Source: Bryobacterales bacterium
GTDB taxonomy: Bacteria > Acidobacteriota > Terriglobia > Bryobacterales > Bryobacteraceae
DNA length: 14,354 bases
Direction: 5' to 3'
Assembly (NCBI GenBank): GCA_003142355.1
Contig: PLMF01000112.1
Coordinates: 7,944 to 22,297, forward strand
Under the pieces are notes generated by a model, which worked only from the letters and a program-made list of their open reading frames with translations, ran no database searches and was not told the origin of the DNA. The position numbers were made by a program, and so were the translations under genes. This document shows, one piece after another, positions 1 through 14,354 of the stretch (its first letter is position 1; each line of letters begins with the position of its first letter).

Positions 1-981
1 AGCCACGGGCGCCGACTTTCGCGTCGGCGCGTCGTCCCCCGCCACCTCCACCGTGCGCCGGGTTTCGTCCCGGTCTCCGCGAAAGGTCCGCCGCGTCGCA
101 TCCAGGTCCTCATCCACCGCTTTCACCGGCCGACCCTCGCGGAACGCCTGCAAATCTTCCTCGAGCTCATGCGCCGTCTGATAGCGCGCTTCGGGCGTCG
201 AGGCCAGCGCCTTCATGAGGATCTTCCGCACCGCTTCCGGGCAGGGGTCGGGCGCCGGCGGCGGCGGAATCCGCGAACGGATCATGCGCTCCAGCCGCTC
301 CGTGGAATCGGCCTGGTAGGGCTGCATCCCGGTGGCCATCTCGTACAGCATCACTGCCAGCGACCACAGGTCCGATCCGGCGTCCACCGTGCCCGTTTCC
401 AGCCGCTCCGGCGACGCGTACGGCACGCTGCCAAACTCGTTCCGCGTCAGCCGCCGCGAGAGCGAAAGCGCCTTGGCGATGCCGAAATCGAGCACCCGCA
501 CTTCACCCCTCGCGTCGATGCGGATGTTCTTCGGCTTGATGTCGCCGTGCACCATCCCGCGGATATCCTTACCGTCGATGATGGCTTCCAGTTGGTGCGC
601 GTTCTCCAGCGTGTGCGCCACCGCCGACGCCACATCCGCCGCGAATTCCACGTCTAGCGGCCCGCGGCGCATCAACTCCGCCAGGTCCTGCCCGTCGACG
701 TACTCCATGGCCACGAAGAAGTACCCATCCACGTCGCCCGCATCGTAAACGCGCACCACCCGCGGATCCACCGCCGCCAGCCGTTCCTGCAGCACCGCCC
801 CGCGCATCTCCGCCGCGATGGCGTCGCGCGTGTCGGCGTCCGTGCTGTGCTCGATCAGCTTCAGCGCCACGGTCTGGCCGGATTCGCTGTCCCGGGCAAG
901 GTACACGTCCGCCATGCCGCCGCGCCCCAGCTTCTGGCGGATCTCATACTTCCCGAGTCTGCGCGACGCCGACGCGATCAT
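1..981 (-). CDS. Ser/Thr protein kinase (Hanks type), 3' end cut by window edge
   Basis: Translating the minus strand from ATG at 981 gives 327 open codons to the window edge with no stop, so the C-terminus lies outside. The kinase fold is clear: glycine loop LGRGGMADVY at residues 18-27, ATP-binding Lys in VALK at 38-41, catalytic loop HGDIKPKN at 145-152, DFG at 166-168, SPE at 190-192 and DLWSL at 204-208. The catalytic loop has Gly where the usual HRD arginine sits. After the kinase domain (about 10-282) comes a charged, Thr-rich segment with two TRRT motifs (296-299 and 307-310), likely juxtamembrane. The start codon overlaps the upstream phosphatase stop as ATGA, so the two are translationally coupled. 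Role by family: it phosphorylates Ser/Thr on partner proteins, here probably read by the FHA protein and reversed by the PP2C of the same operon. Whether a transmembrane sensor follows cannot be seen. Confidence 0.93.
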   Translation of the reverse strand, partial: MIASASRRLGKYEIRQKLGRGGMADVYLARDSESGQTVALKLIEHSTDADTRDAIAAEMRGAVLQERLAAVDPRVVRVYDAGDVDGYFFVAMEYVDGQDLAELMRRGPLDVEFAADVASAVAHTLENAHQLEAIIDGKDIRGMVHGDIKPKNIRIDARGEVRVLDFGIAKALSLSRRLTRNEFGSVPYASPERLETGTVDAGSDLWSLAVMLYEMATGMQPYQADSTERLERMIRSRIPPPPAPDPCPEAVRKILMKALASTPEARYQTAHELEEDLQAFREGRPVKAVDEDLDATRRTFRGDRDETRRTVEVAGDDAPTRKSAPVA

Positions 982-2513
982 TCTTCTTTTTTCCGTGGGG
1001 CGGCTTTCTTAGCGGGCGCTCCCAAATCCAGAAAAGTGTTCCGCTCCAGGACGGTCTGTCTCATGTCCTCCGGCACTTCCACCGCATTTTTCTCGAAAAC
1101 GTTGCCCACCAGGGCCGGCCGCGCGCCGTCCCGCGCCGCCAGGCCCCCGCCCTTGTTCCGGCGAATGTCGTTATGCGAAATCCACGCTTCCGAGGCGCCC
1201 AGAATCAGCACGCCCTGGTTCGCGCAATCGTGAATCGCGTTGGCCCGCAGCACCGGGTTGGCCGTCCCGCGGATCTCCACCCCCACTCCCGCGCCGTCCA
1301 CCTCCACATCGTCCACTTCCACGTTGGAATTCTGCAGCAGGATGCCGGTCGCAATCGGCATGTTCTTCGCCGCCAGAATGCGGAATCCGCTCAGGCGCGC
1401 GCCCTCCACGTTCTCCGCCATCGCCGCCGGTCCGCTGGCGAGCGGCGCCGCCCGCAGGATGGCCGCGCGCGGGACGTGGCTGCGCAGCGTCACGCCGCTC
1501 GCCAGATGCACCTGCTCGCTGTACTCTCCCGCCGCCACGTCGATGGTATCGCCCGCGCGCGCCGCTGCCAGGGCCGCCACAATGCTCGGGTACGCCGCTC
1601 CGCGCCCCACCGCCAGCACCCGCGCCTTCTCAACCACCGGCTGCGGAACCCACAGGCTCCGCGAAAACCAGGCCCCCGCCGCCGCCAGCGCCAACCCCGC
1701 CACAAACCACAAAGCCCGGCCCATCGCGCCGCCGCCCGCCGCGCCGGGCGCGCCCGCGGCGCTGGCCGTAAAACTCTCCCCTTCCACCACCACCACCGTG
1801 ACGTTATCCTTGCCGCCCGCCGCATTGGCCGCGCCGATCAGTTCTTCGATGGCGCGCGCAGGCTCGCCCGCGTGGCGCTCCACCGCGCGCTGGATTTCGC
1901 TCGAGCCCACCTGGTCCGTCAGCCCGTCACTGCACAACAACAGCGCGCTGTCGGGCTCGAACGGGATGCGCTGCAACTCGATGAAATCGGCGTCGCCCGG
2001 AGCATGTTCCTCCGACCCCACATCCCGATACACTTCGTTGCGCCGCGGATGCCGCATGGCCTCCGCTTCGCTCAACTCGCCGCTGTCTTCGCGCTCGCCC
2101 ACCGGCGAATGGTCGTGCGTAATCTTCTGTATCCGTCCGCCCCGGATCTGATATGCCCGCGAATCGCCCACGTGCCCCACCACTGCCGACCCGTTCTCCA
2201 GCACCGCCACCGTCAGCACGCAGGCCATGCCCTGCCATTCCGGATTGCCGCGCGCCGCCTCCAGAATCTCGTTGTTCGCCATGGTGATGGCTTCGCGGAT
2301 GCGCTGCTCCACCGTGCCCGTCTCCCGCTCCAGGCGCGCCCGCACCCGCCGCACCGCGATCTCCGCCGCCTTCTCGCCCGCTGCCTGTCCGCCGATGCCG
2401 TCCACCACCAGGAAGATGCCGCGCTCCGCGTCCACGTGCAGCGCGTCTTCGTTGTTCCGGCGCACCCGCCCCGCGTCGCTCGCTCCCGCGAACCTGATTC
2501 TCGGTCTATCCAT
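978..2513 (-). CDS. PP2C-type Ser/Thr phosphatase fused to a membrane anchor and a right-handed beta-helix domain
   Basis: This is a 511-residue protein. Residues 5-245 are a PP2C phosphatase with the metal-binding aspartates visible: RNNEDA (D23), VVDGIGG (D38), GDSRAY (D117), CSDGLTD (D196) and GKDNVTV (D236). A Gly/Ala linker leads to one hydrophobic segment at about 265-283. Residues 300-495 resemble pectate-lyase/NosD/DUF1565-type beta-helices: AVGRG..YPSIVAAL..A..GDTIDVAAGEY, then repeating short strands with N-turns (VLRANAIHDC, ISHNDIRRN, LVGNVFEKN). The tail is Lys/Glu-rich. ATG at 2513 was chosen because it begins MDRPRIRFAG, just before the fold, and overlaps the FHA stop by 8 bases; the frame continues further upstream but only as a shadow of the FHA gene. 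Inferred role: dephosphorylates targets of the co-operonic kinase, with the beta-helix probably outside the membrane as a carbohydrate or wall sensor. The domain fusion is seen; topology and ligand are inferred. Confidence 0.92.
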   Translation of the reverse strand: MDRPRIRFAGASDAGRVRRNNEDALHVDAERGIFLVVDGIGGQAAGEKAAEIAVRRVRARLERETGTVEQRIREAITMANNEILEAARGNPEWQGMACVLTVAVLENGSAVVGHVGDSRAYQIRGGRIQKITHDHSPVGEREDSGELSEAEAMRHPRRNEVYRDVGSEEHAPGDADFIELQRIPFEPDSALLLCSDGLTDQVGSSEIQRAVERHAGEPARAIEELIGAANAAGGKDNVTVVVVEGESFTASAAGAPGAAGGGAMGRALWFVAGLALAAAGAWFSRSLWVPQPVVEKARVLAVGRGAAYPSIVAALAAARAGDTIDVAAGEYSEQVHLASGVTLRSHVPRAAILRAAPLASGPAAMAENVEGARLSGFRILAAKNMPIATGILLQNSNVEVDDVEVDGAGVGVEIRGTANPVLRANAIHDCANQGVLILGASEAWISHNDIRRNKGGGLAARDGARPALVGNVFEKNAVEVPEDMRQTVLERNTFLDLGAPAKKAAPRKKEE

Positions 2514-3393
2514 GCTGAATACTTCGGAAATCCAGAAACACCACTCCCGCCAGGCCGATCCGCGCGCGCGGCGGCACCGGGGCTTCCACGTTCCGGTCGC
2601 GCTTGCCGCCATCGCTGAAATCGATGCTCGAGGGCACCGCCTGCCCGTCAATCGTGGTTCCCAACCGGCTCAGGTCCTTCAGAAAAAACTTCCCGCTGGC
2701 CGCGTCCCGCCGCAGCCGGAAATGTTCCCGCGATACGTCCGGCAGCGTATCCAGTTTGATGTCGGTCCAATAATCGCGGCCCCCGCGCCCCACCACGATT
2801 TCGTCCTTGGTCATGCGAAACGTCTTCTGCCCGGAATGGTCCGCATACTCGATCACCGCAAAGGCCCCATCGCCGGGCCCCGGCGCCTCCAAAGCCGTTG
2901 CCTCCACCTCGCGGGCCTCTGCCGGCGCCGCCGTAGTCGTAGTCGCCTGTGTCGCCCCCAGTTTCCGCGTGGCGATCCTCCTGGTCATCGACCCGGCGCC
3001 CAACTCCGCCTTCACCGGCAATGCCAGCTCCGAGTAGATCAGGATATCGCCCGCCGCCACCTCATCGTCCGTGTTTTCCAGGATGCGGATCTGCCAGCCG
3101 CCCTCCGGCGCCGCCACTTTGGGCGCCGCCCGCCGCGCCAGCTTCAGACGTTCGACGATGGACGGCCCGTTCAGCGCCTCAACCTCGGCATCGAGCGCCC
3201 GCCGCGCTTCCTCGACGATGCGCGGAACAATCGCGCGCAACCGTTCCATATCGTCGGGATGCAGGTAGACGTGATAAACCGCGGGCGGAAGAACGGAATA
3301 GTGCAGCGGCTCGAGCCCCTCCTTCATATTCCGCACGATTTCGAGAATGACATCCCGGGCGGTCGCGGAAGTGGGAGCGGCAGGCCGGTCCAT
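2506..3393 (-). CDS. FHA-domain protein with FhaA-like (DUF3662-type) N-terminus
   Basis: This 295-residue protein is probably the first gene of the signalling operon. Residues 14-75 (ILEIVRNMKEGLEPLHYSVLPP onwards) resemble the N-terminal domain of actinobacterial FhaA. Residues 98-145 look like a small beta domain. A Thr/Ala linker at 147-175 contains TQATTTT, a plausible phosphorylation patch. Residues 178-290 form an FHA domain with the signature VGRGG (201-205), SREHF (221-225) and LKDLSRLGTTIDG (238-250), the phosphothreonine-binding loops of the family. No membrane segment is visible, so it should be cytosolic. ATG at 3393 is preceded by AGGAGG seven bases upstream. The stop TAG overlaps the phosphatase start. 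Inferred role: adaptor that recruits phosphothreonine proteins, including the downstream kinase, to the membrane phosphatase. Confidence 0.92.
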   Translation of the reverse strand: MDRPAAPTSATARDVILEIVRNMKEGLEPLHYSVLPPAVYHVYLHPDDMERLRAIVPRIVEEARRALDAEVEALNGPSIVERLKLARRAAPKVAAPEGGWQIRILENTDDEVAAGDILIYSELALPVKAELGAGSMTRRIATRKLGATQATTTTAAPAEAREVEATALEAPGPGDGAFAVIEYADHSGQKTFRMTKDEIVVGRGGRDYWTDIKLDTLPDVSREHFRLRRDAASGKFFLKDLSRLGTTIDGQAVPSSIDFSDGGKRDRNVEAPVPPRARIGLAGVVFLDFRSIQHG

Positions 3394-3400
3394 TGGGGAA

Positions 3401-3406
3401 CCTCCT
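3401..3406 (-). promoter_or_regulatory. Strong ribosome binding site of the FHA gene
   Basis: On the minus strand AGGAGG lies seven bases before ATG 3393 and fixes the start of the FHA gene. A TAAGAT hexamer just upstream (3410-3415) could be a -10 element, but I see no matching -35, so I do not call a promoter. The rest of the 3394-3559 spacer shows no gene and no clear terminator. Confidence 0.75.
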
Positions 3407-3559
3407 ACAATCTTAACAACGTACGCCGCGGAATTTCGTTCACCGGATTCTGCCGGACCCTTGCGCGCCGAACTGCCGCCGATGACCCCCGATTGACCTC
3501 GAGCCGCCGCTTTACCTTGACTCGCCGCGCTCCCGTACGCGACGGCGCTCCGGCGACGG

Positions 3560-3892
3560 CTACTTCAAAATGAGCAGGCTGCGCCTGGTGTCATTTTCGA
3601 AATCAGCGAAGCGAATGGCGTTGTCCCGGACAAGGCGCTCGATTTTGCCAGTTGAGCAGTTGCCCGTTTGCAGCAAGATCACTTTAGGTGGAGCGCCCCA
3701 CGCGATACTCAGGCTCGCAAAATCCTTGTCTTTCGTTAGGAACGTGAACCCGTGTGCCTTCGCGTATTCCCATATGACTGCATCGGGAGTGCTGCCCAGT
3801 TCGGCGGAGCTGACGTGAATTGAACTGGGGAACAGGTCCGCCAGGTCGGCGGCAAGACCGGGTGCAAGGTTCTCGTCAACGAGAAGCTTCAA
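3560..3892 (-). CDS. DUF5615-type PIN-like toxin
   Basis: This 110-residue protein has the hallmarks of the DUF5615 (Mut7-C/PIN-like) family: N-terminal MKLLVDENL with acidic D6 and E7, D37 in the TPDAVIW helix, and FLTKDKDF (51-58), where D55 and D57 complete the acidic metal site. By family it would be an RNase-like toxin paired with a DUF433 antitoxin. The antitoxin gene lies directly upstream and overlaps it by 17 bases, the usual order. The length is normal and the frame intact, so it looks functional. The RNase activity is inferred from the fold; the RNA target is unknown. Confidence 0.85.
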   Translation of the reverse strand: MKLLVDENLAPGLAADLADLFPSSIHVSSAELGSTPDAVIWEYAKAHGFTFLTKDKDFASLSIAWGAPPKVILLQTGNCSTGKIERLVRDNAIRFADFENDTRRSLLILK

Positions 3893-4109
3893 GAACCGAG
3901 ATCCTTTCCGGAATACTGGCGAAGAACTCGTACACCGCCTGGAAGTCTTCCTTCTCCAGGTAGGGGAAGTCCTTCAGAATCTCTTCCTCTGTCATTCCGG
4001 ATGCGAGGTACGATGCGAGATCGTAGACCGTGAAGCGCAGGCCGCGAATGCAGGGCTTGCCGCCCATTTTGCCGGGTTCGACGGTAATGCGTGGGTTCAG
4101 GCCCGCCAT
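3876..4109 (-). CDS. DUF433 family antitoxin
   Basis: From ATG 4109 this is a 77-residue protein beginning MAGLNPRITV. The core is a close match to the DUF433 family: LNPRITVEPGKMGGKPCIRG, then LRFTVYDLASYLASGMTEEEILKDFPYLEKEDFQAV in two parts, a winged-helix-like fold. DUF433 proteins are commonly found as antitoxins next to DUF5615 PIN-like toxins, as here with a 17-base overlap. The frame stays open upstream to a TTG at 4172, but the added residues look unlike the family, so the internal ATG is preferred even though its ribosome site is weak (GGTGGTGG). It probably binds its own promoter and neutralises the toxin; no operator can be assigned with confidence. Confidence 0.85.
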   Translation of the reverse strand: MAGLNPRITVEPGKMGGKPCIRGLRFTVYDLASYLASGMTEEEILKDFPYLEKEDFQAVYEFFASIPERISVLEASR

Positions 4110-4246
4110 GGATGTACCACCACCATGATACTCTTCGCAGGCGTTGATTACGAAGTGCCATCTCGAATCCAAGCTTAGCCAACAGGTCCGGCTGAGCTGG
4201 TGAACCCGGTGGTGGCGGAAGGGTAGGGGCTGCCGAAACTGGCCCG

Positions 4247-4330
4247 CTACGCGCCGATCTGCGCGAAAAACGGAAATGTTTTGTTGATAACGGTAGGGTT
4301 GTCGTTCAAACTACGCGCAGATCTGCGCGA
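4247..4330. repeat. Paired palindromic repeats, two 20-base copies 64 bases apart
   Basis: The 20 bases at 4247-4266 and 4311-4330 are identical except at 4255 (C) versus 4319 (A). The second copy contains a perfect 16-base palindrome CGCGCAGATCTGCGCG at 4314-4329; the first has one mismatch to that palindrome. The DNA between them is AT-rich. The pair sits between the start of the DUF433 operon and tRNA-Arg, so it could be a double operator for either. The repetition is seen directly; the regulator is unknown. Confidence 0.7.
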
Positions 4331-4376
4331 GGTCCCGCCGCCGCTCCGGTGTAAAACTGATTCTGACCACCAGCGC

Positions 4377-4453
4377 GCGCCCGTAGCTCAGGTGGATAGA
4401 GCGGCTGGCTTCGAACCAGTAGGTCGGGAGTTCGAGTCTCTCCGGGCGCGCCA
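4377..4453 (+). tRNA. tRNA-Arg (anticodon UCG), attachment site of the element
   Basis: A full cloverleaf can be drawn by hand: acceptor GCGCCCG (4377-4383) with CGGGCGC (4443-4449), discriminator G and encoded CCA (4451-4453). The anticodon stem GCUGG/CCAGU closes a CUUCGAA loop, giving anticodon UCG for CGA arginine codons. The T stem is GGGAG/CUCUC around UUCGAGU. The gene is 77 bases long. Its 3' part from 4406 is repeated at 7446-7493, so part of this functional gene may derive from the integrated element, which restored the tRNA on insertion. Confidence 0.96.
4406..4453 (+). repeat. attL: tRNA-proximal attachment repeat
   Basis: These 48 bases, from the anticodon stem through CCA of tRNA-Arg, match 7446-7493 with a single difference (G at 4436, A at 7476, in the T loop). 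Homology stops sharply at both ends. Tyrosine integrases often cross over in the anticodon-loop half of tRNA genes, which fits the left edge of the repeat. Confidence 0.92.
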
Positions 4454-4469
4454 TTTAACTCAAAGTCAT

Positions 4470-5632
4470 TCAGATAGTTGGCGTCAAGACGGGCGTGTTC
4501 TCTAAATCCTCGTTTTGTCTGGTATGCCCAGAAGTATGCCCACTGTTTGCCACTTGCGCCCGATCCATCGCCGCGCGAATGGTCTGTTCTTGCGGGTGAA
4601 CGTACCGCCTCGTGATGTTCATGTCGCGGTGTCCCGCGAGGTATGCCAGCGTCCAAGGGTCCATGTGGGGTGCCCATCGGGTTAGGCAGGTGTGCCGCAA
4701 GGTGTACAGTTCGAATCCCTGGAACTCGATGTCTTCCCGTTCGGTCTGCTTCTGGAGGATGGCCGTAGCTTGCTCAATCGCCTTGGCGTGCTGCTTCTTG
4801 AGGGTGGAAGGTTCCATGTGCCCGCTCCTGGTGGGGGCCGGAAAGACCCATTCCCCACCTGCGATCTTGGAAAGGCGCATATCCAGAATCGCTTGTACTC
4901 GTGGAGTCATGGGAATTCGACGGCGGGCGTTGTCGGTTTTGCCGTACTAAATCTCGATTTTCCCATCCCGGACATTCTCCGGGCGCAGACGGAAGCACTC
5001 TTCGGGCCTGAGTCCGCAATCCAGGAGGATGCTTGCCACGTCCGAAAGCAAGCTGGCGTCCATGTGCTGATTCATTGCCTCTGACTTCGCGCCCGCGAAA
5101 TACAGGGTCTCTTCCTCCGCCGTAAGGACCCGCTCTCTGTGGTTCTCCCCTGGGACCATGCGCACGGTGGGTAGCGCCTTCTCTACCTTGTCCCACTCCT
5201 GGGCCAAGTGGAACATCCTTCGGAGTGCTTGCAGTTCGCGCTTAATGCTGCTGATTTGCAGGCCCACGCCCTTCCGCAGTGCGATGAAGGCCCCAATTAT
5301 CTCGGTTGTGATGGAGTGAAGACGTGCGGCGGCCAGTTTCTCAGACGACAACAGGGCCTTGACGCTGTACTCGTAATACTTCTGAGTCTTCACCTTCGCG
5401 GTGAACGTGGCGCGGACGAAGGGCAGGAAATCGCGTTCAGCGAATTCCTTCAGTGTCGGTACAGGCTTCTTGTCGCGGATTCCCACTTCGCCCTTGGCGA
5501 GTGCGGTTCGATGCGCCGCCTCCATCTGTTCGGCAACCGCTTGTTGGTCTGTTTCGTGCTCTCTCGGATCTGCTCGCCGTTCCAGTTGAACTTGTACCAC
5601 CAGTTCTTGCTCTTGGCCTGCTTGTAGACCAT
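4470..5632 (-). pseudogene. Tyrosine recombinase (phage-type integrase), interrupted by a frameshift and an amber codon
   Basis: Joining the pieces gives about 387 residues, a normal integrase length. The N-terminal arm-binding part (MVYKQAKSKNWWYKFNWNG, from ATG 5632) runs to TKQTNKR. One base is then missing in a G run (plus-strand C run at 5537-5538), and the frame resumes as VAEQMEAAHRTALAKG. The core-binding domain follows, then GLRPEE with the first catalytic Arg. TAG at 4949-4947 interrupts KIEI*YGKTDNARRR just before the catalytic Lys of GKT. Beyond it the same frame keeps LRHTCLTR, LAGHRDMN and RRYVHP, i.e. the His, Arg, His and Tyr residues. CAG to TAG would explain the stop. Apart from these two lesions every signature is preserved, so decay looks recent. 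Restart at ATG 4910 would lack the catalytic Lys and first Arg. Confidence 0.9.
4523..4544. repeat. Left arm-type site candidate (tandem TATGCCCA)
   Basis: The site reads TATGCCCA, three variable bases, then GTATGCCCACT. It matches 7310-7331 at 20 of 22 positions and lies inside the 3' end of the integrase gene, where it encodes the repeated SGHT-SGHT residues near the C-terminus. Its place about 70 bases inside the attachment core and its twin at the other end fit integrase arm-binding sites. Binding is inferred. Confidence 0.65.
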
Positions 5633-5805
5633 CACGTGCCGCCTTTCTTCGTCTGCTTCTTGCCGCTACCCTTCGGACGCCCACTTTTCTTGCCGTTCTC
5701 CCGTGCGATCTCCTGAAGCCTTTTCAGCCCGAACCGTTCCAGCCGGCCCTTGTAGGAGCGCTTACCGAGCCAGCTTGTGAACTGCTCAAGCTCGAACTTT
5801 TTCAT
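5632..5805 (-). CDS. Small basic protein with AT-hook-like tail, coupled to the integrase
   Basis: This is a 57-residue reading frame from ATG 5805 to TGA 5634-5632, starting MKKFELEQFTSWLGKRSYKG. It is strongly basic; the tail KKSGRPKGSGKKQTKK contains a GRPKG core like an AT-hook. The stop shares its last A with the integrase ATG (TGATG), so the two are translationally coupled, and AGGA lies seven bases before its own ATG. I do not recognise a family. Position, size and charge suggest a DNA-bending accessory factor such as an excisionase or recombination directionality factor, or an autoregulator of the element. Coding is supported by the start signal, the exact junction and its composition; function is inferred. 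Confidence 0.75.
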   Translation of the reverse strand: MKKFELEQFTSWLGKRSYKGRLERFGLKRLQEIARENGKKSGRPKGSGKKQTKKGGT

Positions 5806-5814
5806 GTCTATATC

Positions 5815-5831
5815 CTAACTGTTTCGGTTAG
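5815..5831. promoter_or_regulatory. Inverted repeat in the divergent control region of the element
   Basis: CTAAC-TGTTTCG-GTTAG is a 5-base inverted repeat ten bases upstream of the small basic gene, in the 109-base spacer between it (leftward) and the kinase (rightward). It could be an operator for a regulator of both. TATAGT at 5866-5871 might be a -10 for the kinase, but no good -35 is visible. Confidence 0.4.
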
Positions 5832-5914
5832 CTCCGCAAGTGCGAGAGTGCGGGCCGTTTTATGCTATAGTCGTGAATTGCCAAGGTGCTTTCTTGGTTT
5901 GGAAGATTTGCTCA

Positions 5915-7093
5915 ATGCCCGACTACCGTGGATGGGAAATAATCAAATCGCTGGGAGAAGGTGGGCAAGGTGAAGTATTCCTTGTGCGAAGTCCGCAGAG
6001 AGTCAGCGAACGTCGCGAAGCAAATACGGTGGTTAAGACCACGGTGGTTCGACTCAACGGCATCGGGCGTGACGCCCACGATCACGACCTTGCGGCCCAG
6101 AGACTAGCCGACGCTGTGTTGACGTACTCTAGGCCGGAGACGCGAAACGAACTCGGTGCATTGAAACAGTACAAGATGCCTGAGGGAGAAGAGGGAAAGA
6201 AGGTCGACGCGCGATTTATCAACGAGGTGCAGGCGCTCTGGAACCTCAAGGAAGATCCGGCTGTCCTTCAGGTTGTGGAGTACGATCCGCACGAGCATTG
6301 GATACTTACCAGTTATTACGAGCGGGGGAGCCTCAGCAGGCATCAGTCGCTGTTTGAGGGCAATGTCTCCGCAGCCCTAATGGCATTGCGGCCAGTAGTC
6401 GAAGTACTAGCGAAACTTCACGAAAAGGGTATCGTGCATCGCGACATCAAGCCGAGAAACATTTTTCTCAACTCTGCGAACAAAGCGGTCCTCGGCGATT
6501 TCGGCATCGTCTTCCTTGAGGCCGGAAACCGCCCAACCGAACTACTGGAGCGCGTGGGTTCGAGGGATTGGATGGCGCCGTGGGCACACACTGGAATGCG
6601 CATTGACGACGTACAGCCCAGCTTTGACGTATTCCCGATGGGCAAGGTGATTTGGTCGGTGATTTCGGGCCGTCCAGTGCTGCCGTATTGGTACCACAGG
6701 CATTCGGAGTACGACCTTACGAAGCAATTTCCTGACGACCCTGCCATGCACGCGGTAAACGATCTTCTGGACCGCTGCGTCGTCGAACTGGAGAAGGACT
6801 GCGTAACCTCTGCCGGCGCACTGCTCAAGATCGTTGACGAGACCCTAGTCCTCTTGCGCGCTGGCGGTCAGCCGGTCAGCGATGCAATTCCGCGCCGGTG
6901 TCGAGTCTGCGGGAGAGGGCACTATTTACGACTCAAGAAGGATTCAATTTCGGTTTCCGGTGCTGAGCCCATTCTGGTCGATCTGTATGGATGCGAGTTC
7001 TGTGGCCACATTCAGATGTTCGGACGCAGAGCCACCAAATTTACTGGACATGACGCCTCAGATAGTCCGAGATTTTGGGACGTCCCACTCTGA
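5915..7093 (+). CDS. Ser/Thr protein kinase with C-terminal zinc-ribbon-like domain (element cargo)
   Basis: This 392-residue protein starts at ATG 5915, nine bases after GGAAG; a GTG at 5840 in the same frame only adds residues unlike a kinase. The kinase domain spans about 5-315: glycine loop GEGGQGEV (14-21), Lys in VVK (41), a charged insertion at about 45-97, Glu in FINEVQAL (104), HRDIKPRN (175-182), GDFGI (194-198), MAPW (220-223, where APE would be usual) and FDVFPMGKVIW (237-247). Active-site residues are intact. The C-terminus has CRVC (329-332) and CEFC (360-363), two CxxC knuckles 28 residues apart, as in zinc ribbons. No membrane segment is visible, so it is likely cytosolic. It is divergent from the integrase unit and the only cargo of the element. 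Kinases on mobile elements include abortive-infection defence kinases such as Stk2, so a defence role is possible but unproven. Confidence 0.93.
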   Translation: MPDYRGWEIIKSLGEGGQGEVFLVRSPQRVSERREANTVVKTTVVRLNGIGRDAHDHDLAAQRLADAVLTYSRPETRNELGALKQYKMPEGEEGKKVDARFINEVQALWNLKEDPAVLQVVEYDPHEHWILTSYYERGSLSRHQSLFEGNVSAALMALRPVVEVLAKLHEKGIVHRDIKPRNIFLNSANKAVLGDFGIVFLEAGNRPTELLERVGSRDWMAPWAHTGMRIDDVQPSFDVFPMGKVIWSVISGRPVLPYWYHRHSEYDLTKQFPDDPAMHAVNDLLDRCVVELEKDCVTSAGALLKIVDETLVLLRAGGQPVSDAIPRRCRVCGRGHYLRLKKDSISVSGAEPILVDLYGCEFCGHIQMFGRRATKFTGHDASDSPRFWDVPL

Positions 7094-7104
7094 TGCAACA
7101 GTCA

Positions 7105-7144
7105 GTTGAGACCCTGAAACAGCTCTGACAGGGTCACCTTCAAC
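7105..7144 (+). terminator. Hairpin just after the element kinase, possible terminator
   Basis: GACCCTG (7110-7116) pairs perfectly with CAGGGTC (7129-7135), and outer arms GTTGA (7105-7109) and TCAAC (7140-7144) extend the stem with a small bulge. It begins 12 bases after the kinase stop. There is no T run after it, so it is not a textbook intrinsic terminator. A second GC-rich hairpin (CCGCCC 7148-7153 with GGGCGG 7166-7171) follows. The rest of 7172-7445 has no gene I can support; it holds the right arm-type sites. Confidence 0.45.
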
Positions 7145-7284
7145 TCCCCGCCCGCCCTGGCTGGTGGGCGGTGTAATGATTACGGTGGGGCTTGCGATGG
7201 GTCTCAGGGTGACGCCTGCTTGATGCGAGGGATACAGTCTGCCTTGGTCTTCCATCCGCGCCACGGGGCTGGAATCACCAGAAA

Positions 7285-7331
7285 TGGGCATACAATGACC
7301 GCGCGCAGATATGCCCAATAGTATGCCCACT
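7285..7331. repeat. Right arm-type site cluster (one inverted and two direct TATGCCCA copies)
   Basis: 7310-7331 repeats the left site (TATGCCCA, three bases, GTATGCCCACT; 20 of 22 matching). An inverted copy TGGGCATA lies at 7285-7292, and a partial TGGGCA at 7408-7413. The cluster is 115 bases inside the right core repeat. Occurrence near both ends of the element supports an integrase or accessory-protein binding role, which is inferred. Confidence 0.65.
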
Positions 7332-7445
7332 CCACGTGTAGCAGCGCTGTTCAGTGCTGCTAGGGGTCCTTCGGAAGTGGTTGAAAATGCAACCTGTTTA
7401 GCACCGATGGGCAATGCTGTAAGTCGTTGAATTTCCGTGCGGCAT

Positions 7446-7493
7446 TGGCTTCGAACCAGTAGGTCGGGAGTTCGAATCTCTCCGGGCGCGCCA
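7446..7493 (+). repeat. attR: displaced 3' fragment of tRNA-Arg
   Basis: This copy matches tRNA-Arg 4406-4453 at 47 of 48 bases but lacks the 5' acceptor strand and D arm, so it is not a tRNA gene. It marks the distal end of the element. The A at 7476 is probably the original chromosomal base, with the G in the working tRNA brought in by the element, or else drift. Confidence 0.92.
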
Positions 7494-7502
7494 CTCCCAG
7501 GT

Positions 7503-7916
7503 CTACTGCGCTGCGGCCGTCAAAATCGTCAGTTTCTCCACGGCCCTGTAGTCGTCGGCATTGTGGGTAACCAGTGGCACGTTCAACTGCAAGGCGGCGG
7601 CCGCAATCCAGGCATCCGCGAATGTGATAGGCCGGCCTCTCTTCTCACAGCCGCTCTTGGTCCGCGCCCACGCCCGGGCCGTCTGCGTGTCCGGCAGGAG
7701 AAGCGTAAAGCGTGTGAGAAAACGGCGCATCAGATCGCGGCGCGCGGCACCCCAGTTTTTCGCTTCCATGCCATACTCGATTTCCGCAAGCGTAATCAGC
7801 GAAACCGCCAATGGTCTACCTGCAAGGATGGCTTGATAGGCCGGAGCAAGAGAATGATTCTTAAACAGGAAAGAAACGACATCGGTATCCACAACCGCGG
7901 GCATTGTGGAGTCCAT
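7503..7916 (-). CDS. PIN-domain RNase toxin, VapC/FitB-like
   Basis: This 137-residue PIN protein has the acidic metal site at expected places: VVDTDVVSF (D10, D12), LAEIEYGM (E45), FADAWIAA (D101) and VTHNADDY (D121/D122). RPITFADAWIAAAAL is typical of VapC-like toxins. By family it cleaves RNA in the cytoplasm and is held in check by the protein encoded just upstream, whose stop TAA shares one base with this ATG. ATG 7904 (MPAVVDTD) is an alternative start nearer the fold. The stop lies only nine bases outside attR of the element, but the gene is on the chromosomal side. Confidence 0.9.
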   Translation of the reverse strand: MDSTMPAVVDTDVVSFLFKNHSLAPAYQAILAGRPLAVSLITLAEIEYGMEAKNWGAARRDLMRRFLTRFTLLLPDTQTARAWARTKSGCEKRGRPITFADAWIAAAALQLNVPLVTHNADDYRAVEKLTILTAAAQ

Positions 7917-8107
7917 TAGAGAGACACAGGACGGGAGCCGTTCTTACGAAGCGCCTGGATCAGGGCCACGAACTCCTCCGCTCCTTCCGGGTCAAGCTCC
8001 GTGTCGGTCTTCAGGTCTTCCGCGCTGACCGGCGGCTTGAGGACAACGCCGGCCGGGAGCCGTACCTGGTCCTCTCCGGTTTCTGCTCCTTTGGTTCTTT
8101 GTGGCAT
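7916..8107 (-). CDS. Small acidic protein, probable antitoxin of the PIN toxin
   Basis: This 63-residue protein begins MPQRTKGAETGEDQVRLPAG. I do not recognise its family. It is acidic in the middle (SAEDLKTDTELDPEGAEEF) with a short C-terminal helix ending in RKNGSRPVSL, and has no obvious DNA-binding domain. Its stop overlaps the PIN start by one base, the usual order for an antitoxin before its toxin, and its start is eight bases after the RES toxin stop, so it probably shares that transcript. If it lacks DNA binding, regulation may come from the Xre protein at the head of the run. Confidence 0.7.
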   Translation of the reverse strand: MPQRTKGAETGEDQVRLPAGVVLKPPVSAEDLKTDTELDPEGAEEFVALIQALRKNGSRPVSL

Positions 8108-8115
8108 GTCAGTTC

Positions 8116-8625
8116 TCAGTTTAGCTCAACCGCCCTCTGGGTCCGATTGGGGATCGGGTCTGAATACGGCGGCCCGTCCCTGAACCTCCTCGGGTCAATG
8201 CCATAGGAGTGGACGCGGGCGATCCGCGCCTGCGCGCTCTCCGGGTGCCGCGGGTTCATCAGGACGTTCCAGGTCGCCGGCACGATCACCGATGGGACCC
8301 GGAACAAGGCAGTACGGCCGGAGCGGAGCCATTCGTCGCCAGCACGTCGGGTCGCCTCCAGATTGGTCCACCACGCCCGACCCACGGCGCTGATGTCCAG
8401 GTCCTCGATGGCCAGCGCGTCGGGAGTCTCGATTTCCAGATACCGAAAGTCGACGGGCACATTTTCGATGTCCACCCTTGCGTGGACCAGCACCTCAAGA
8501 AGCGCTGTCGCCGGATTCGGCGCGCAATATACGATCCGGCGTCCGGCCGTATGCCATCGGCCGGCCGCGCTCAAACCGCCGCTTCCATCCAGCGTGGAAT
8601 GGTTGCCGACGCGCCACAGAATCAC
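8116..8625 (-). CDS. RES-domain toxin (NAD-degrading family)
   Basis: This 169-residue RES protein shows the family residues in order: LWRV (R5), GGLSAAGRW (R23, W24), RIVYCAPNPATALLEVLVH (Y33, E44), then FRVPSVIVPATWNVLMNP and the C-terminal RRFRDG. Characterised members such as MbcT, ParT and Res break down NAD+ or transfer ADP-ribose and cause growth arrest. The cognate Xre/DUF2384 antitoxin is directly upstream and overlaps by four bases (ATGA), so translation is coupled. Length and motifs are normal, so it looks intact. Confidence 0.93.
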   Translation of the reverse strand: MILWRVGNHSTLDGSGGLSAAGRWHTAGRRIVYCAPNPATALLEVLVHARVDIENVPVDFRYLEIETPDALAIEDLDISAVGRAWWTNLEATRRAGDEWLRSGRTALFRVPSVIVPATWNVLMNPRHPESAQARIARVHSYGIDPRRFRDGPPYSDPIPNRTQRAVELN

Positions 8626-9077
8626 GCGAAGATCCCGTGATCGATCTGGACGAGCATCTCTTCCACCAGGCGGGCGCCGGCTTCGGTGGCCAGCATGTCG
8701 ATGGGGGCCTTGCCGTCGAAGCGCTGCTGCGGTTTCCGCAACCAGCGCCAGGCGCGTTCCGGTTCGCCGAACACCTGCTCGGCCATGGCCGTGATCCGGG
8801 CCACGCGCACGGCCTTGTCCGACTCCGCTTTCGAGAGCGGCTGATGCCTGGCGATGCGGTGCGCCAGCGTCCTGTGCGGCACGATCAACTGGTACACTTC
8901 AGCGTCGGACAGGCCGCCACGGACCAGCGACTTGATAGTCGTGACGGGAAGCCGCTTCTCCACCATGGAAGCCAGTTCATCGCCGGTCCGAATGCGGGAA
9001 ACCCCAAGCTTTCCTCGCAGGCGTGCATAGAAGCCCCCCGGCGGCGCCGGTGCGGCGGCCTTATTCAACTCGGCCAT
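8622..9077 (-). CDS. Xre/MbcA/ParS family antitoxin (DUF2384)
   Basis: This 151-residue protein has a helix-turn-helix-like N-terminal half (about 35-75, with TTIKSLVRGGLSDAEVYQLI and RTLAHR) and a C-terminal toxin-binding DUF2384 region: GEPERAWRWLRKPQQRFDG (104-122) and APIDMLATEAGARLVEEML (124-142), ending DHGIFA. In the family this half binds the RES toxin and the other half binds the operon promoter. ATG 9077 follows AAGGAGG by eight bases. A promoter and twin operator-like repeats lie immediately upstream, consistent with autorepression. It leads a four-gene run. Confidence 0.93.
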   Translation of the reverse strand: MAELNKAAAPAPPGGFYARLRGKLGVSRIRTGDELASMVEKRLPVTTIKSLVRGGLSDAEVYQLIVPHRTLAHRIARHQPLSKAESDKAVRVARITAMAEQVFGEPERAWRWLRKPQQRFDGKAPIDMLATEAGARLVEEMLVQIDHGIFA

Positions 9078-9085
9078 TTACAAAA

Positions 9086-9135
9086 CCTCCTTGGCAAGCT
9101 GCCTCTATCATACGGGCAACTTGCATGCGCGCCAA
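9086..9135 (-). promoter_or_regulatory. Promoter, twin operator-like repeats and ribosome site of the toxin-antitoxin run
   Basis: On the minus strand, TTGGCG (9135-9130), a 17-base spacer and TATGAT (9112-9107) form a good sigma70-type promoter. AAGGAGG (9092-9086) follows at ideal distance from ATG 9077. On the plus strand GGCAAGCTGC (9093-9102) and GGCAACTTGC (9115-9124) agree at 8 of 10 positions, are each near-palindromic, and start 22 bases apart, two helical turns, flanking the -10. They are likely binding sites for the Xre antitoxin. Confidence 0.7.
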
Positions 9136-9196
9136 ACCGGGCGGGCGGTCGCCTTCGAGATTCAAGGCGAGAGCAAGATCATATCGGCGGCCGCTT

Positions 9197-10378
9197 CTAC
9201 GCAATCAGCTCTTTCTTGATGGTGACACCCAATCCCGACCCCCGCGGCAGGTTCACATACCCTTCTTTGTCCACCAGCGGCGGGTCTTCCATGATCGCGA
9301 AGCCGTTGGTATAGGCGGCGATCGGCGGGTCGTGCAGAAGCTCAATCCAGGGCGCGTGCGGCCAGCAGGCAATGCAATGGAGCTGGGCAATGGTCCCCAG
9401 GTTCCCGCCACCGTGATGGGGAATAACCCGCCGGTTGAACGCCGCTGCCAGCTCCGCGATCCGGCGAAATCCCGCGACTCCGTCCGCCACCATCACGTCC
9501 GGCTGGAGAATGTCGAAAACGCCTCTCTCCAGCATCCAGCGGTACTCGTGTACTCCGTGATTGTTCTCTCCACCGGCGATCGGTATATCGACCAGCCGGT
9601 TCAGTTCGGCCAGCCCGTCGAAATCGTAGCGGCACAACGGCTCCTCGAGCCACAGCGCCTGGAGGCGCTGCAACTCGCGCGCGGTCTCGACGGCCCGGCG
9701 GAAATCCCACCGAACTCCGGGTTGCCACGTGCCCGCGGATTGCGCCTGGTTGGCGTCCGTCATGATGCCCATGTCTTCGCCAACCGCTTTCCTGACCGCC
9801 TCGACCAGCCCGATATCCTCCTTCATGGTCTGGTAATGCAGCCGTAGCTTGATGGCTTTCCAACCCTGGGCTTTGAGCTCGACAGCCATGCGCACTCTTT
9901 CATCGGGCGTCGACAACTGGATCATGCTCGCATACGCGGGCACGCGTTCCTTGGCCGCCCCCCAGAGCTTGTAGAGCGGCTGTTGGGCCGCCTTGCCGAT
10001 GAGATCCCAGAGGGCGATCTCGAGACTCGCCACCGCGCGCGAGCCGGCTCCCAGGTAGTACCGCAGCGGGCCCGCGAACTGTTCGATGTCGAAGGGATCC
10101 TTGTCCAGCAATTGGGCTTTGGCGGCGGGCACGGACGCGGCATCCATGCCTGGCCCGATCCCTGTCAGCCCCTGGTCCGTGCGGATCTCGGTGAAGGAAC
10201 CGCCGCCCATCCGCTGGGTGGTCCGGGTACCCGGGTTCCAGGCCGCCTCCATGGTGCCGGTTTCCCGGATGGTCTTCAGCGCGACCACCCGGATGTCCGC
10301 GATCTTCAGGCGCGGCGCCGATTGGACAGCCGGCAGCAGCGCCGCCGGGATTGCTTTGAGAAAACTTCGCCTTTGCAT
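9197..10378 (-). CDS. Mandelate racemase/muconate lactonizing enzyme-like (enolase superfamily) protein with Tat signal
   Basis: This 393-residue protein starts at ATG 10378. Residues 3-15 (RRSFLKAIPAALL) form a twin-arginine-type signal, so export as a folded enzyme is likely. The N-terminal capping domain (about 24-150) is followed by a barrel with superfamily residues: IKLRL (K177, R179), TDAN (D208), LEEP (E245), GGEN (E271), LQPDV (D294) and IPHHGGG (H321, H322). D208, E245 and E271 would bind Mg2+; the Lys and His would be the acid/base pair. Members abstract a proton next to a carboxylate, as in sugar-acid dehydratases or racemases; the substrate cannot be read here. The frame is open upstream to 10645 only as a shadow of the ABC gene. 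It lies 61 bases after the ABC ATPase stop and could share its transcript. Confidence 0.9.
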   Translation of the reverse strand: MQRRSFLKAIPAALLPAVQSAPRLKIADIRVVALKTIRETGTMEAAWNPGTRTTQRMGGGSFTEIRTDQGLTGIGPGMDAASVPAAKAQLLDKDPFDIEQFAGPLRYYLGAGSRAVASLEIALWDLIGKAAQQPLYKLWGAAKERVPAYASMIQLSTPDERVRMAVELKAQGWKAIKLRLHYQTMKEDIGLVEAVRKAVGEDMGIMTDANQAQSAGTWQPGVRWDFRRAVETARELQRLQALWLEEPLCRYDFDGLAELNRLVDIPIAGGENNHGVHEYRWMLERGVFDILQPDVMVADGVAGFRRIAELAAAFNRRVIPHHGGGNLGTIAQLHCIACWPHAPWIELLHDPPIAAYTNGFAIMEDPPLVDKEGYVNLPRGSGLGVTIKKELIA

Positions 10379-10439
10379 GGTGCCCTTCCCGTGGCTCAAG
10401 GTAGCACATCCTGCCGGAGACGCGGGAAGCGCCCCTACC

Positions 10440-11102
10440 CTATTCGGTGACCAGACCGTCGCGCAGCAGGACGCGGCGGTCGGCGCATTGGGCCACCGAT
10501 GGTTCGTGCGTAACCAGCACCAGGGTGGCGCCCTGTTCGCGGTTGAGCTCGAGCAGCAGATCGAGCACCATCTGGCCGCTGGCGCTATCCAGATTGCCGG
10601 TAGGCTCATCGGCCAGCAGGATGGAGGGCCGCCGTGCGAACGCACGTGCCAGCGCGACGCGCTGCTGCTCGCCGCCGGAAAGCTCCACGGGGTAATGGTC
10701 GCGGCGGTCCTCGAGGCCCACTCGACCCAGCAGGTCGCGGGCCCGGGCTCGATCGCCCGGTTCTTCGCCGCCCAGCTCCATGGGAAGCCGCACGTTCTCT
10801 TCCGCCGTCAGCGTTGGGATGAGGTGATACGACTGATAGACGAAACCGATTTTGCGGCCGCGCAGCACCGCCATCTGGTCTTCGGAGAGCACTGTGATGT
10901 CCTCTCCGTCCAACAGGACGCGGCCGCTGGTGGGCGCGTCCAGGCCCGCCAGCAAACCGAGCAGCGTGGTCTTGCCGCTGCCGGAGGGGCCCATGATGGC
11001 CGCAAATTGGCCGCTCGGGATATCCAGGTCGATGCCTCTCAAAATGTCCACACGGCGGGTGCGGGTATCGAGGGACTTGGTGAGGGCGCGGACCTGAATC
11101 AA
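10440..11102 (-). CDS. ABC transporter ATP-binding protein, YbbA/LolD/MacB-like
   Basis: This is a 220-residue nucleotide-binding subunit with Walker A GPSGSGKT (38-45), Q-loop at Q90, signature LSGGEQQR (141-148), Walker B ILLADEPT (161-168), D-loop NLDSAS and switch His H199. The FVYQSYHLIPTLTAEENV stretch is typical of the LolD/MacB/YbbA group. The start is taken as TTG 11102: the nearest ATG upstream is in another frame and hits a stop at once, and the frame upstream of TTG is a shadow of the permease gene. It begins 13 bases after the permease stop and powers that permease, probably for export or mechanotransmission at the inner membrane. Confidence 0.92.
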   Translation of the reverse strand: MIQVRALTKSLDTRTRRVDILRGIDLDIPSGQFAAIMGPSGSGKTTLLGLLAGLDAPTSGRVLLDGEDITVLSEDQMAVLRGRKIGFVYQSYHLIPTLTAEENVRLPMELGGEEPGDRARARDLLGRVGLEDRRDHYPVELSGGEQQRVALARAFARRPSILLADEPTGNLDSASGQMVLDLLLELNREQGATLVLVTHEPSVAQCADRRVLLRDGLVTE

Positions 11103-11115
11103 GTTCCCATTATGG

Positions 11116-13587: not shown

Positions 13588-13638
13588 GCCATAGAAGCTT
13601 ATCACGCGCCCTGGCAGTACCGGCCGCCCCCGCAGCCA

Positions 13639-13667
13639 TTGAACCATCGGCAAGAAAGTGCTAGCGT
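13639..13667 (+). promoter_or_regulatory. Weak promoter candidate for the FG-GAP gene
   Basis: TTGAAC (13639-13644), a 17-base spacer and TAGCGT (13662-13667) sit in the 97-base divergent spacer, just before the AGAGGG ribosome site (13675-13680) and ATG 13685. The -10 is poor (3 of 6), so this is tentative. Confidence 0.3.
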
Positions 13668-13684
13668 ATCTCCGAGAGGGTGCT

Positions 13685-14354
13685 ATGAAACGAGTGCTCT
13701 GGCTCCTGGCTGCCGGATTCTCGGTTTCCGCAATTCACGCTCAAACCTGTCCGTCACCGAATTTTCTTCAGGGCAGTTCGGTCACGGTGCTCGACTACAC
13801 GAGCGGTGCCGGTCTTCAGCGTCAGCCGGACGGGTCGTTCACCCGGCAACGCTACCAGTCCCGGTCTCCATACAAGAAGCTCGATTCCACACCCAACTTC
13901 CAATCGGTTTTGTTGAACTGCTCCGGGGCCGGCGCCCGTACGTTCAAGACGCCGCCGGGGTGGGTTCCGCTGGCGGATCAACCCGGGGCGGCGTCGCGGA
14001 CTCTGGTTGTCTCCGATTTCCTCGGCACCGGCGCGTTGGTAGGACTGGCTACAGTCAAGGGTGGCCAATTCGGGGGGCCGTCCGTCGATAGCCTGCTGGT
14101 CGTGGTCCTCAACTCCGACGGCAGCTTGCAGTCCAACGTGTCTTATCCGGTCTCCGCGTACCCGAAAGGTCTGCTGGTGGCGGACCTGAACCACGATGGC
14201 AGGAAGGATGTGGTAGTCGTCAGCGCCGGCTCCGGTTCCGACACCGGTACCATCTCCGTCTTCCTGAACAAGGGTGACGGCACGCTCCAGCCGGCGGTGC
14301 GCTACCCGGCGCACACCAGCCCGGTTTCAGCGGTGGCCTTCGATTTCAATGGCG
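13685..14354 (+). CDS. Secreted FG-GAP/VCBS repeat protein, 3' end cut by window edge
   Basis: There are 223 open codons from ATG 13685 to the edge. Residues 1-19 are a Sec signal peptide (MKRVLWLLAAGFSVSAIHA) with cleavage likely before QT. After about 100 unassigned residues come FG-GAP/VCBS-type repeats: LVADLNHDGRKDVVVVSAG, with Ca-binding-like D-x-N-x-D-G-x-x-D, then ISVFLNKGDGTLQPAVRYPA and the start of a further repeat AVAFDFNG. Such proteins fold as beta-propellers outside the cell and are abundant in Acidobacteriota. ATG follows AGAGGG by four bases. It is divergent from the ABC permease. Ligand and full length are unknown. Confidence 0.88.
   Translation, partial: MKRVLWLLAAGFSVSAIHAQTCPSPNFLQGSSVTVLDYTSGAGLQRQPDGSFTRQRYQSRSPYKKLDSTPNFQSVLLNCSGAGARTFKTPPGWVPLADQPGAASRTLVVSDFLGTGALVGLATVKGGQFGGPSVDSLLVVVLNSDGSLQSNVSYPVSAYPKGLLVADLNHDGRKDVVVVSAGSGSDTGTISVFLNKGDGTLQPAVRYPAHTSPVSAVAFDFNG

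Follow-up and report, generated by a model that had tools for sequence, protein, structure and literature searches.

A probable decayed genomic island with a single protein kinase gene at a tRNA-Arg locus of a Bryobacterales bacterium

The DNA examined here (hereafter the window) is a 14,354 nucleotide (nt) stretch of contig PLMF01000112.1 from a Bryobacterales bacterium (phylum Acidobacteriota), and contains a small element inserted at the 3' end of a tRNA-Arg(tcg) gene (Table 1). Two direct copies of the last 48 nt of this tRNA, spaced 3040 nt apart and differing by one mismatch, form the attachment (att) sites, and between them lie a broken tyrosine integrase gene, a gene for a basic protein of 57 amino acids (aa), and an intact gene for a Ser/Thr protein kinase. 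A first-pass annotation, made from the sequence alone, had recognized the repeats, their spacing and the three genes, and these descriptions hold, including the coordinates.

Table 1. Features of the tRNA-Arg element and its integration site in the window.
Feature	Position	Strand	Basis and remarks
tRNA-Arg(tcg), intact	4377-4453	+	ARAGORN; only tRNA in the window
Integrase-proximal att copy	4406-4453	+	Direct repeat; 3' 48 nt of tRNA-Arg(tcg)
Tyrosine integrase pseudogene	4470-5635	-	tblastn of relative P0125, Pfam, PHROG, homologues
Proximal putative arm-type pair	4523-4544	+	Reads GGCATACTTCTGGGCATA on the - strand; 87 nt from the tRNA, inside the integrase 3' end
57-aa basic protein	5632-5805	-	GRPKG stretch; homologues, alignments, structure model
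Divergent intergenic region	5806-5914		CTAAC-N7-GTTAG inverted repeat directly upstream of the 57-aa gene, seen by eye
Ser/Thr protein kinase, 392 aa	5915-7093	+	Pfam, alignments, AF2, Foldseek; most likely start given, frame open from 5840
Distal putative arm-type sites	7276-7338		Direct pair 7310-7331 and inverted half GGGCATA at 7286-7292
Distal att copy	7446-7493	+	Displaced tRNA-Arg 3' end, 47/48 identical

Chance is ruled out as the origin of the repeat, as the next-best match of a 48-mer in the window, both strands considered, is 25/48, against 47/48 for the distal copy. An intact tRNA with a displaced 3' repeat, and a tyrosine integrase, though broken, inside the repeats, are the marks of a tRNA island; the att repeats and the integrase lesions described below bear out the earlier proposal that an integrase drove insertion at the tRNA 3' end and has since lost its function. 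None of ten other open reading frames (ORFs) within the element matched Pfam at 0.01, shorter ORFs not being searched, and the same ten gave a single weak PHROG match (0.0084, function unknown) and none to a known replication, packaging or transfer family, in agreement with the first-pass annotation, as is the finding that the intact kinase is the only cargo gene. The guanine-plus-cytosine (GC) content of the element is indeed low (56.3% over the interior, 4454-7445, versus 67.7% at 1-3442 and 66.4% at 9181-14354), but the near flanks are low too (58.7% at 3443-4376 and 63.0% at 7494-9180), and GC content alone is therefore no marker of the element. A close plasmid origin of the element DNA was rejected, since plasmid matches cover 2-4% of the query, mostly the tRNA (20 matches listed of 137).

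The integrase reading frame is disrupted twice. By tblastn, residues 1-34 of its 388-aa relative P0125 align at 5635-5534 and residues 34-388 at 5537-4473 in another frame, indicating a frame change near 5534-5537, and the second frame contains an in-frame TAG at 4947-4949. The 3' piece matches PF00589 (Pfam), and both large pieces match PHROG integrases. Two database proteins, P0121 and P0123, terminate at the same place as the window integrase piece, and a single-read error is unlikely because P0123 represents three contigs (which may share source data). Intact relatives of 387-388 aa, two of them labelled Bryobacteraceae, show 87-91% identity across about 80% of the 245-aa query. Neither a close phage nor a close plasmid origin of the integrase was supported, as all 35 phage-collection and all 54 plasmid-collection records fall below 60% identity (23.5-25.8% in the 10 listed for each collection). 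The element can probably no longer excise unaided.

Scanning genome contigs with the integrase alignment gave 55 loci (designated L plus a number), nearly all from Acidobacteriota, L025 being from Hydrogenedentota. In 43/55 the integrase 3' end lies no more than 120 nt from an antiparallel tRNA gene (Arg, Pro, Thr, Val or Lys); in L033, about 900 nt separate the two. A tree of 47 integrase rows groups the window with L181, L015 and L037, all at tRNA-Arg(tcg), and then with L001 and L032, and by eye the grouping largely follows the tRNA target. Complete elements, found by seeking the tRNA sequence upstream of the integrase, number 13 including the window; they are bounded by 44-61 nt repeats of part of the tRNA and span 1.9-13.5 kb. 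The sizes are 1909 nt (L051), 2943 (L049), 3040 (window), 4116 (L027), 4399 (L036), 6637 (L031), 7231 (L040), 8036 (L177), 8108 (L033), 8169 (L048), 8405 (L016), 9602 (L025) and 13,514 (L170). At most other loci the available upstream sequence is too short, and no repeat was found in eight with about 10 kb or more (L009, L010, L017, L037, L039, L045, L054 and L178). At three loci, all at tRNA-Pro(cgg), elements stack in tandem: L036 has three tRNA-end repeats, and L027 and L049 each carry a second integrase fragment just past the distal repeat.

Some of the larger members carry genes typical of phage satellites. A PHROG search of ten proteins from five of them identified a terminase small subunit in L016 (phrog_51, 7.9e-14), in L025 (phrog_83, 3.7e-9) and, by a weak match only, in L033. 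Both L016 and L025 also have primases, L040 has a DnaB-like helicase and L025 an excisionase/regulator match; two large proteins of L170 had no match. By Pfam, L025 further matches HTH_17 and Resolvase, and L016 matches AAA_25. The satellite-like character that the first-pass annotation proposed for the window element is thus seen in some larger relatives (primase, helicase, terminase small subunit) and not in the element itself. A small serine recombinase adjoins or lies near the tyrosine integrase in several loci (Resolvase in L025; resolvase-like by eye in L016, L029, L031, L035 and L170). Cargo was sought by comparing ten proteins with Pfam and PADLOC: L036 has RelA_SpoT and a ParA-like ATPase, L049 an HTH_37/Gp49 pair, L051 a DUF2652 protein, and the 7.2 kb element L040 a TIR protein (PADLOC TIR-TM, 180.6 bits). 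A 498-aa protein of L027 has a weak TPR match only, and no Pfam match was found for the ORFs L036:8670-9311, L049:8201-8857 and L031:5930-6937.

The most informative feature of the window proved to be a second pair of repeats that the first-pass annotation had not recorded, the direct pairs at 4523-4544 and 7310-7331, the first of which lies in the coding sequence for the integrase C-terminus. A tandem motif, GGCAYA-N5-GGGCAYA, is present at the proximal end, 83-89 nt from the tRNA, in 37/50 loci, and L031 and L035 have an additional overlapping copy at 98 nt with a spacer of 4. When the two ends of each complete element were compared, 15-18 of 18 positions matched in 11/13 elements, the window included, the matching stretch beginning at 70-87 nt from the tRNA on the proximal side and 118-142 nt inward of the distal repeat. 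Among 251-282 random 100-nt windows per element, the observed score was never reached in ten elements and once for L036. Their position and repetition suggest that these pairs are probably arm-type binding sites of the integrase.

Immediately upstream of the integrase, the stop codon of the 57-aa gene shares 4 nt (GTGA) with the integrase start if the latter is GTG 5635, or 1 nt (TGATG) if it is ATG 5632. The 57-aa protein has 725 homologues at E ≤ 0.01 (120 listed), and the exact protein is present on 15 contigs. Alignments reveal, besides an invariant core, the GRPKG stretch, which we take to be AT-hook-like. Its AlphaFold2 (AF2) model has two helices and a low-confidence tail (mean predicted local distance difference test, pLDDT, 73), and neither a solved-structure search nor Foldseek gave a convincing match. 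Among 45 distinct integrase starts that were read, nine loci have a short ORF that carries a comparable tail and has its stop codon starting no more than 6 nt from the integrase start; the tail is GRP in L001, L002, L004, L005, L015, L018, L024 and L028, and a variant, GGRSRG, in L021. The remaining loci have a resolvase-like ORF, a helix-turn-helix (HTH) ORF, another ORF or nothing at this position. The inverted repeat in the divergent intergenic region may represent an operator.

The kinase ORF (5840-7093) matches PF00069 (Pkinase) at 5.6e-23, and ATG 5915 is the most likely start because the family consensus begins at the equivalent of MPDYRGWEI. An alignment of 89 sequences shows no variation at the beta3 lysine, the alphaC glutamate, HRD, the first and last residues of DFG and three of the four C-terminal cysteines, and almost none at the DFG phenylalanine and the remaining cysteine. 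The AF2 model (mean pLDDT 89) displays a kinase fold with a two-helix insert before the beta3 strand (residues 34-79 of P0001), and the C-terminus is a strand region bearing CxxC motifs that forms a four-cysteine, zinc-ribbon-like end. The best Foldseek matches are eukaryotic kinases such as PAK4. Among 120 matches listed of 999, the closest full-length homologue is 64% identical and a partial one 66%. A close phage or plasmid origin was rejected, all matches being below 60% identity (13 phage and 174 plasmid records); viral contigs contain 52 loci of the family, of which the best by E-value is 30% identical, higher identities being confined to short pieces.

No such kinase was found in 396 genomes of the phylum at 1e-60 with four candidates scored per genome, and an empty result of this search shows nothing. 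Within the order, 5/257 genomes match at 1e-30, and 4/5 reach 1e-92 or better with an alignment search. None of the five has a family (A2-type) integrase or a tRNA gene within the 8.6-19.5 kb around the homologue. In one of them (L148) the homologue lies beside a Prim-Pol/DUF927 protein, a sub-threshold HTH_17 protein and a split tyrosine integrase of another kind, which is probably a second type of integrative element. Conversely, a search of 59 integrase loci for the kinase yielded, outside the window, only 23-25% identical matches, in L011 and L049. The trio of integrase, 57-aa protein and kinase, which the first-pass annotation had suggested looking for at other tRNA genes, is therefore in no other locus examined (59 integrase loci; five kinase homologues in 257 genomes).

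The kinase is likely to be the reason that the element was retained, and a role in defence is tentatively proposed for it. It shares a protein kinase domain with the single-kinase defence systems PD-T4-6 and MAD6, which are its best PADLOC matches (87.5 and 90 bits, kinase domain only), but has a zinc-ribbon-like end and scores far under the curated MAD6 cut-off (NCBIfam NF047741, 71.3 bits versus 460). The restriction of these matches to the kinase domain and the low MAD6 score are compatible with ordinary signalling cargo that has no part in defence and is carried incidentally or because it serves the host, as are four of the five homologue loci (L147, L149, L150 and L151), which have neither a family (A2-type) integrase nor a tRNA in 9.8-19.5 kb and whose neighbours look chromosomal by eye. 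Against such an origin, L148 indicates that the kinase family can ride on mobile elements, and sibling elements of the window carry TIR, RelA-SpoT with ParA, and HTH/Gp49 cargo. Ordinary cargo is possible, if somewhat doubtful.

Integrase integrity varies with element size. The integrase is intact in 35/54 integrase loci; among the complete elements it is broken in all five shorter than 5 kb (L051, L049, window, L027 and L036) and in none of the eight longer than 6 kb (Fisher p 0.0008). This contrast is the main reason for reading the window element as decayed, and it speaks against the first-pass view that the element is minimal by design. The element is likely to be a decayed genomic island integrated at a tRNA, from a family that is found mainly in Acidobacteriota and includes some satellite-like members, and the window copy is best read as a cargo-retaining derivative, not as a minimal autonomous element.

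A number of observations weigh against this reading. The complete set consists of 13 elements only, nearly all from draft metagenome assemblies, in which lesions can be errors. The small elements were bounded by the nearest repeat, and with L027, L036 and L049 in tandem arrays, size is partly a choice. The lesion of L036 is a single in-frame stop near the start, and a frame of 329 aa stays open. The clade of the window integrase (L015, L181 and L037, then L001 and L032) has no complete large element, so that for this clade a satellite ancestry is not established. L048 is an outlier, with the 5' half of its tRNA repeated in the other orientation, an arm sequence that differs from the family motif, and a long branch; in L049 and L051 the ends share no arm match, and in a letter-shuffle control (10 per element) L040 reached 15 versus the observed 16. 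Synteny with the closest genomes also stops near 3442-3453: the left flank is about 88% identical (6-3442) to genome G008 (Bryobacterales bacterium isolate palsa_349, the genome of L021) and about 89% identical (10-3453) to G166, where the contig ends about 350 nt beyond the match, and in both genomes the tRNA-Arg(tcg) lies on a different contig from the flank match.

Empty tRNA-Arg sites, which the first-pass annotation had suggested looking for in relatives, do occur, but no orthologous one was found, and the nine loci chosen by right-flank similarity hold no tRNA-Arg. The 48-nt att pattern, with up to 3 mismatches, is present in 100/257 genomes. Thirty tRNA-Arg(tcg)-like loci, the first and unoccupied-rich part of a longer list, were fetched; 28 of them extend 1288 nt or more downstream, where no family integrase is seen in 26, while L203 and L225 have one. 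Further down the list at least five places are occupied, namely G006:C41, G137:C290, G010:C26, G007:C39 and G098:C292 (L015, L181, L037, L016 and L023). The tRNA-Arg(tcg) locus of G166 has no integrase within 11.7 kb, and G008 and G212 have integrase remnants at theirs.

Two other explanations of the small size and broken integrase were weighed against decay. The element could be a cassette mobilized in trans, sibling integrases acting on its att repeats and arm sites much as miniature inverted-repeat transposable elements (MITEs) borrow transposases. The window retains the att copies and arm pairs of both ends, many related integrases are intact, as counted above, and the tandem arrangements at one tRNA (L027, L036 and L049) would fit; the longest contigs with the window's integrase piece (P0123) and kinase (P0001), known here by their lengths, are 3063 and 3120 nt, close to a circle of 3040 nt. 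On the other hand, lengths of about 3.1 kb can stem from assembly breaks, the contig of P0121 is 3866 nt, and the window, which is the part of the genome in view, has no intact sibling integrase, leaving mobilization in trans improbable. A true minimal mobile type, autonomous with no more than an integrase, the coupled 57-aa factor and one cargo gene, moved by transduction or transformation and with the integrase lost recently in this copy, appears more improbable still. It would be consistent with the occurrence of the identical 57-aa protein on 15 contigs, as after a recent spread of the module, and with the absence by eye of a replication gene in L001, L015 and L181, all of the window clade, where approximately 2 kb ahead of the integrase can be seen; yet that upstream sequence is cut by contig ends and was read without a family search, and the broken integrases of all five small elements run counter to such a design. 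It also seems unlikely that the loci represent an undescribed Acidobacteriota family of tRNA-targeting, phage-satellite-like elements (defined by the integrase clade, the integrase-overlapping AT-hook-like gene and the paired arm sites), the small copies of which move in trans and disseminate defence genes, a new zinc-ribbon kinase among them.

The element can be compared with several known systems. As in tRNA islands of the Islander type (PMC4383910), a tyrosine integrase adjoins the regenerated tRNA and a displaced 3' fragment marks the far end; the window element differs in its broken integrase, single cargo gene and very small size. The PICMI satellites of Vibrionaceae (phage-inducible chromosomal minimalist islands), as far as excerpts of PMC10803314 describe them, are likewise small and have a small gene that shares 1-4 nt with int; such a gene was found in 21/35 PICMI subfamilies, and in PICMI115 the overlapping gene, iolg, is required for excision. 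The larger relative L025 resembles them further in its HTH_17 protein and primase. They differ in integrating next to fis and not at a tRNA, the window element has neither alpA nor a primase, and the likeness of the 57-aa gene to iolg is one of position. Phage-inducible chromosomal islands (PICI; excerpts of PMC6092414) share an integrase, HTH_17 regulator, primase/helicase and terminase small subunit with some larger members, known here by their non-structural genes, while the window element has a broken integrase only. The regulator and replication genes expected of PICI and PICMI are absent from the window element and occur in L016 and L025, and no PHROG match to a terminase small subunit was found in it. 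Tycheposons, counted among proposed satellites (excerpts of PMC10872708 and PMC11389934), also combine a tRNA border, a tyrosine recombinase and variable cargo; compared by description, they belong to other phyla and span 4-200 kb, versus 3.04 kb here.

For a decayed island, the following course can be proposed. Recombination between an excised circle and the tRNA-Arg(tcg) 3' end would have produced the boundaries observed, with the tRNA restored by the copy of its end that the element brought in, and the integrase presumably bound the GGCAYA-N5-GGGCAYA pairs at both ends. Judging from its conservation and the analogy with iolg of PICMI, the 57-aa protein may have been an accessory or directionality factor. 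Replication and packaging genes like those of the larger relatives would have been lost or never carried, and the integrase gained the frame change and nonsense codon that are seen today. Our best guess for the intact kinase is that it phosphorylates host or phage proteins during infection or stress, and its zinc-ribbon-like end could serve in target binding or sensing.

The surroundings of the element are also of some interest. A block from 3443 to 9180 comprises, by Pfam, a DUF433/DUF5615 pair, the tRNA and element, a PIN protein with a 63-aa partner, and a RES/Xre pair, and toxin-antitoxin-like loci thus flank the element on both sides. Further left, at 978-3393 on the minus strand, is a gene for a protein with a PP2C phosphatase match (just below the curated cut-off) and a NosD-type repeat match; its neighbour, without a family match, is presumably FHA-like, and both are conserved in G008 and G166.

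Literature searches on phage satellites in Acidobacteria, and on Acidobacteriota combined with mobile elements, defense systems and tyrosine recombinases, retrieved no papers. The value of the window element is that it led to a set of precisely ended, tRNA-inserted elements in Bryobacterales and their relatives that we did not find described. The arm-site signature could delimit further elements, and the small gene adjoining the integrase is a testable candidate for an excision factor. The contrast between small elements with broken integrases and large elements with open ones, some of the latter satellite-like, suggests a route by which a mobile element may become a fixed cargo gene.

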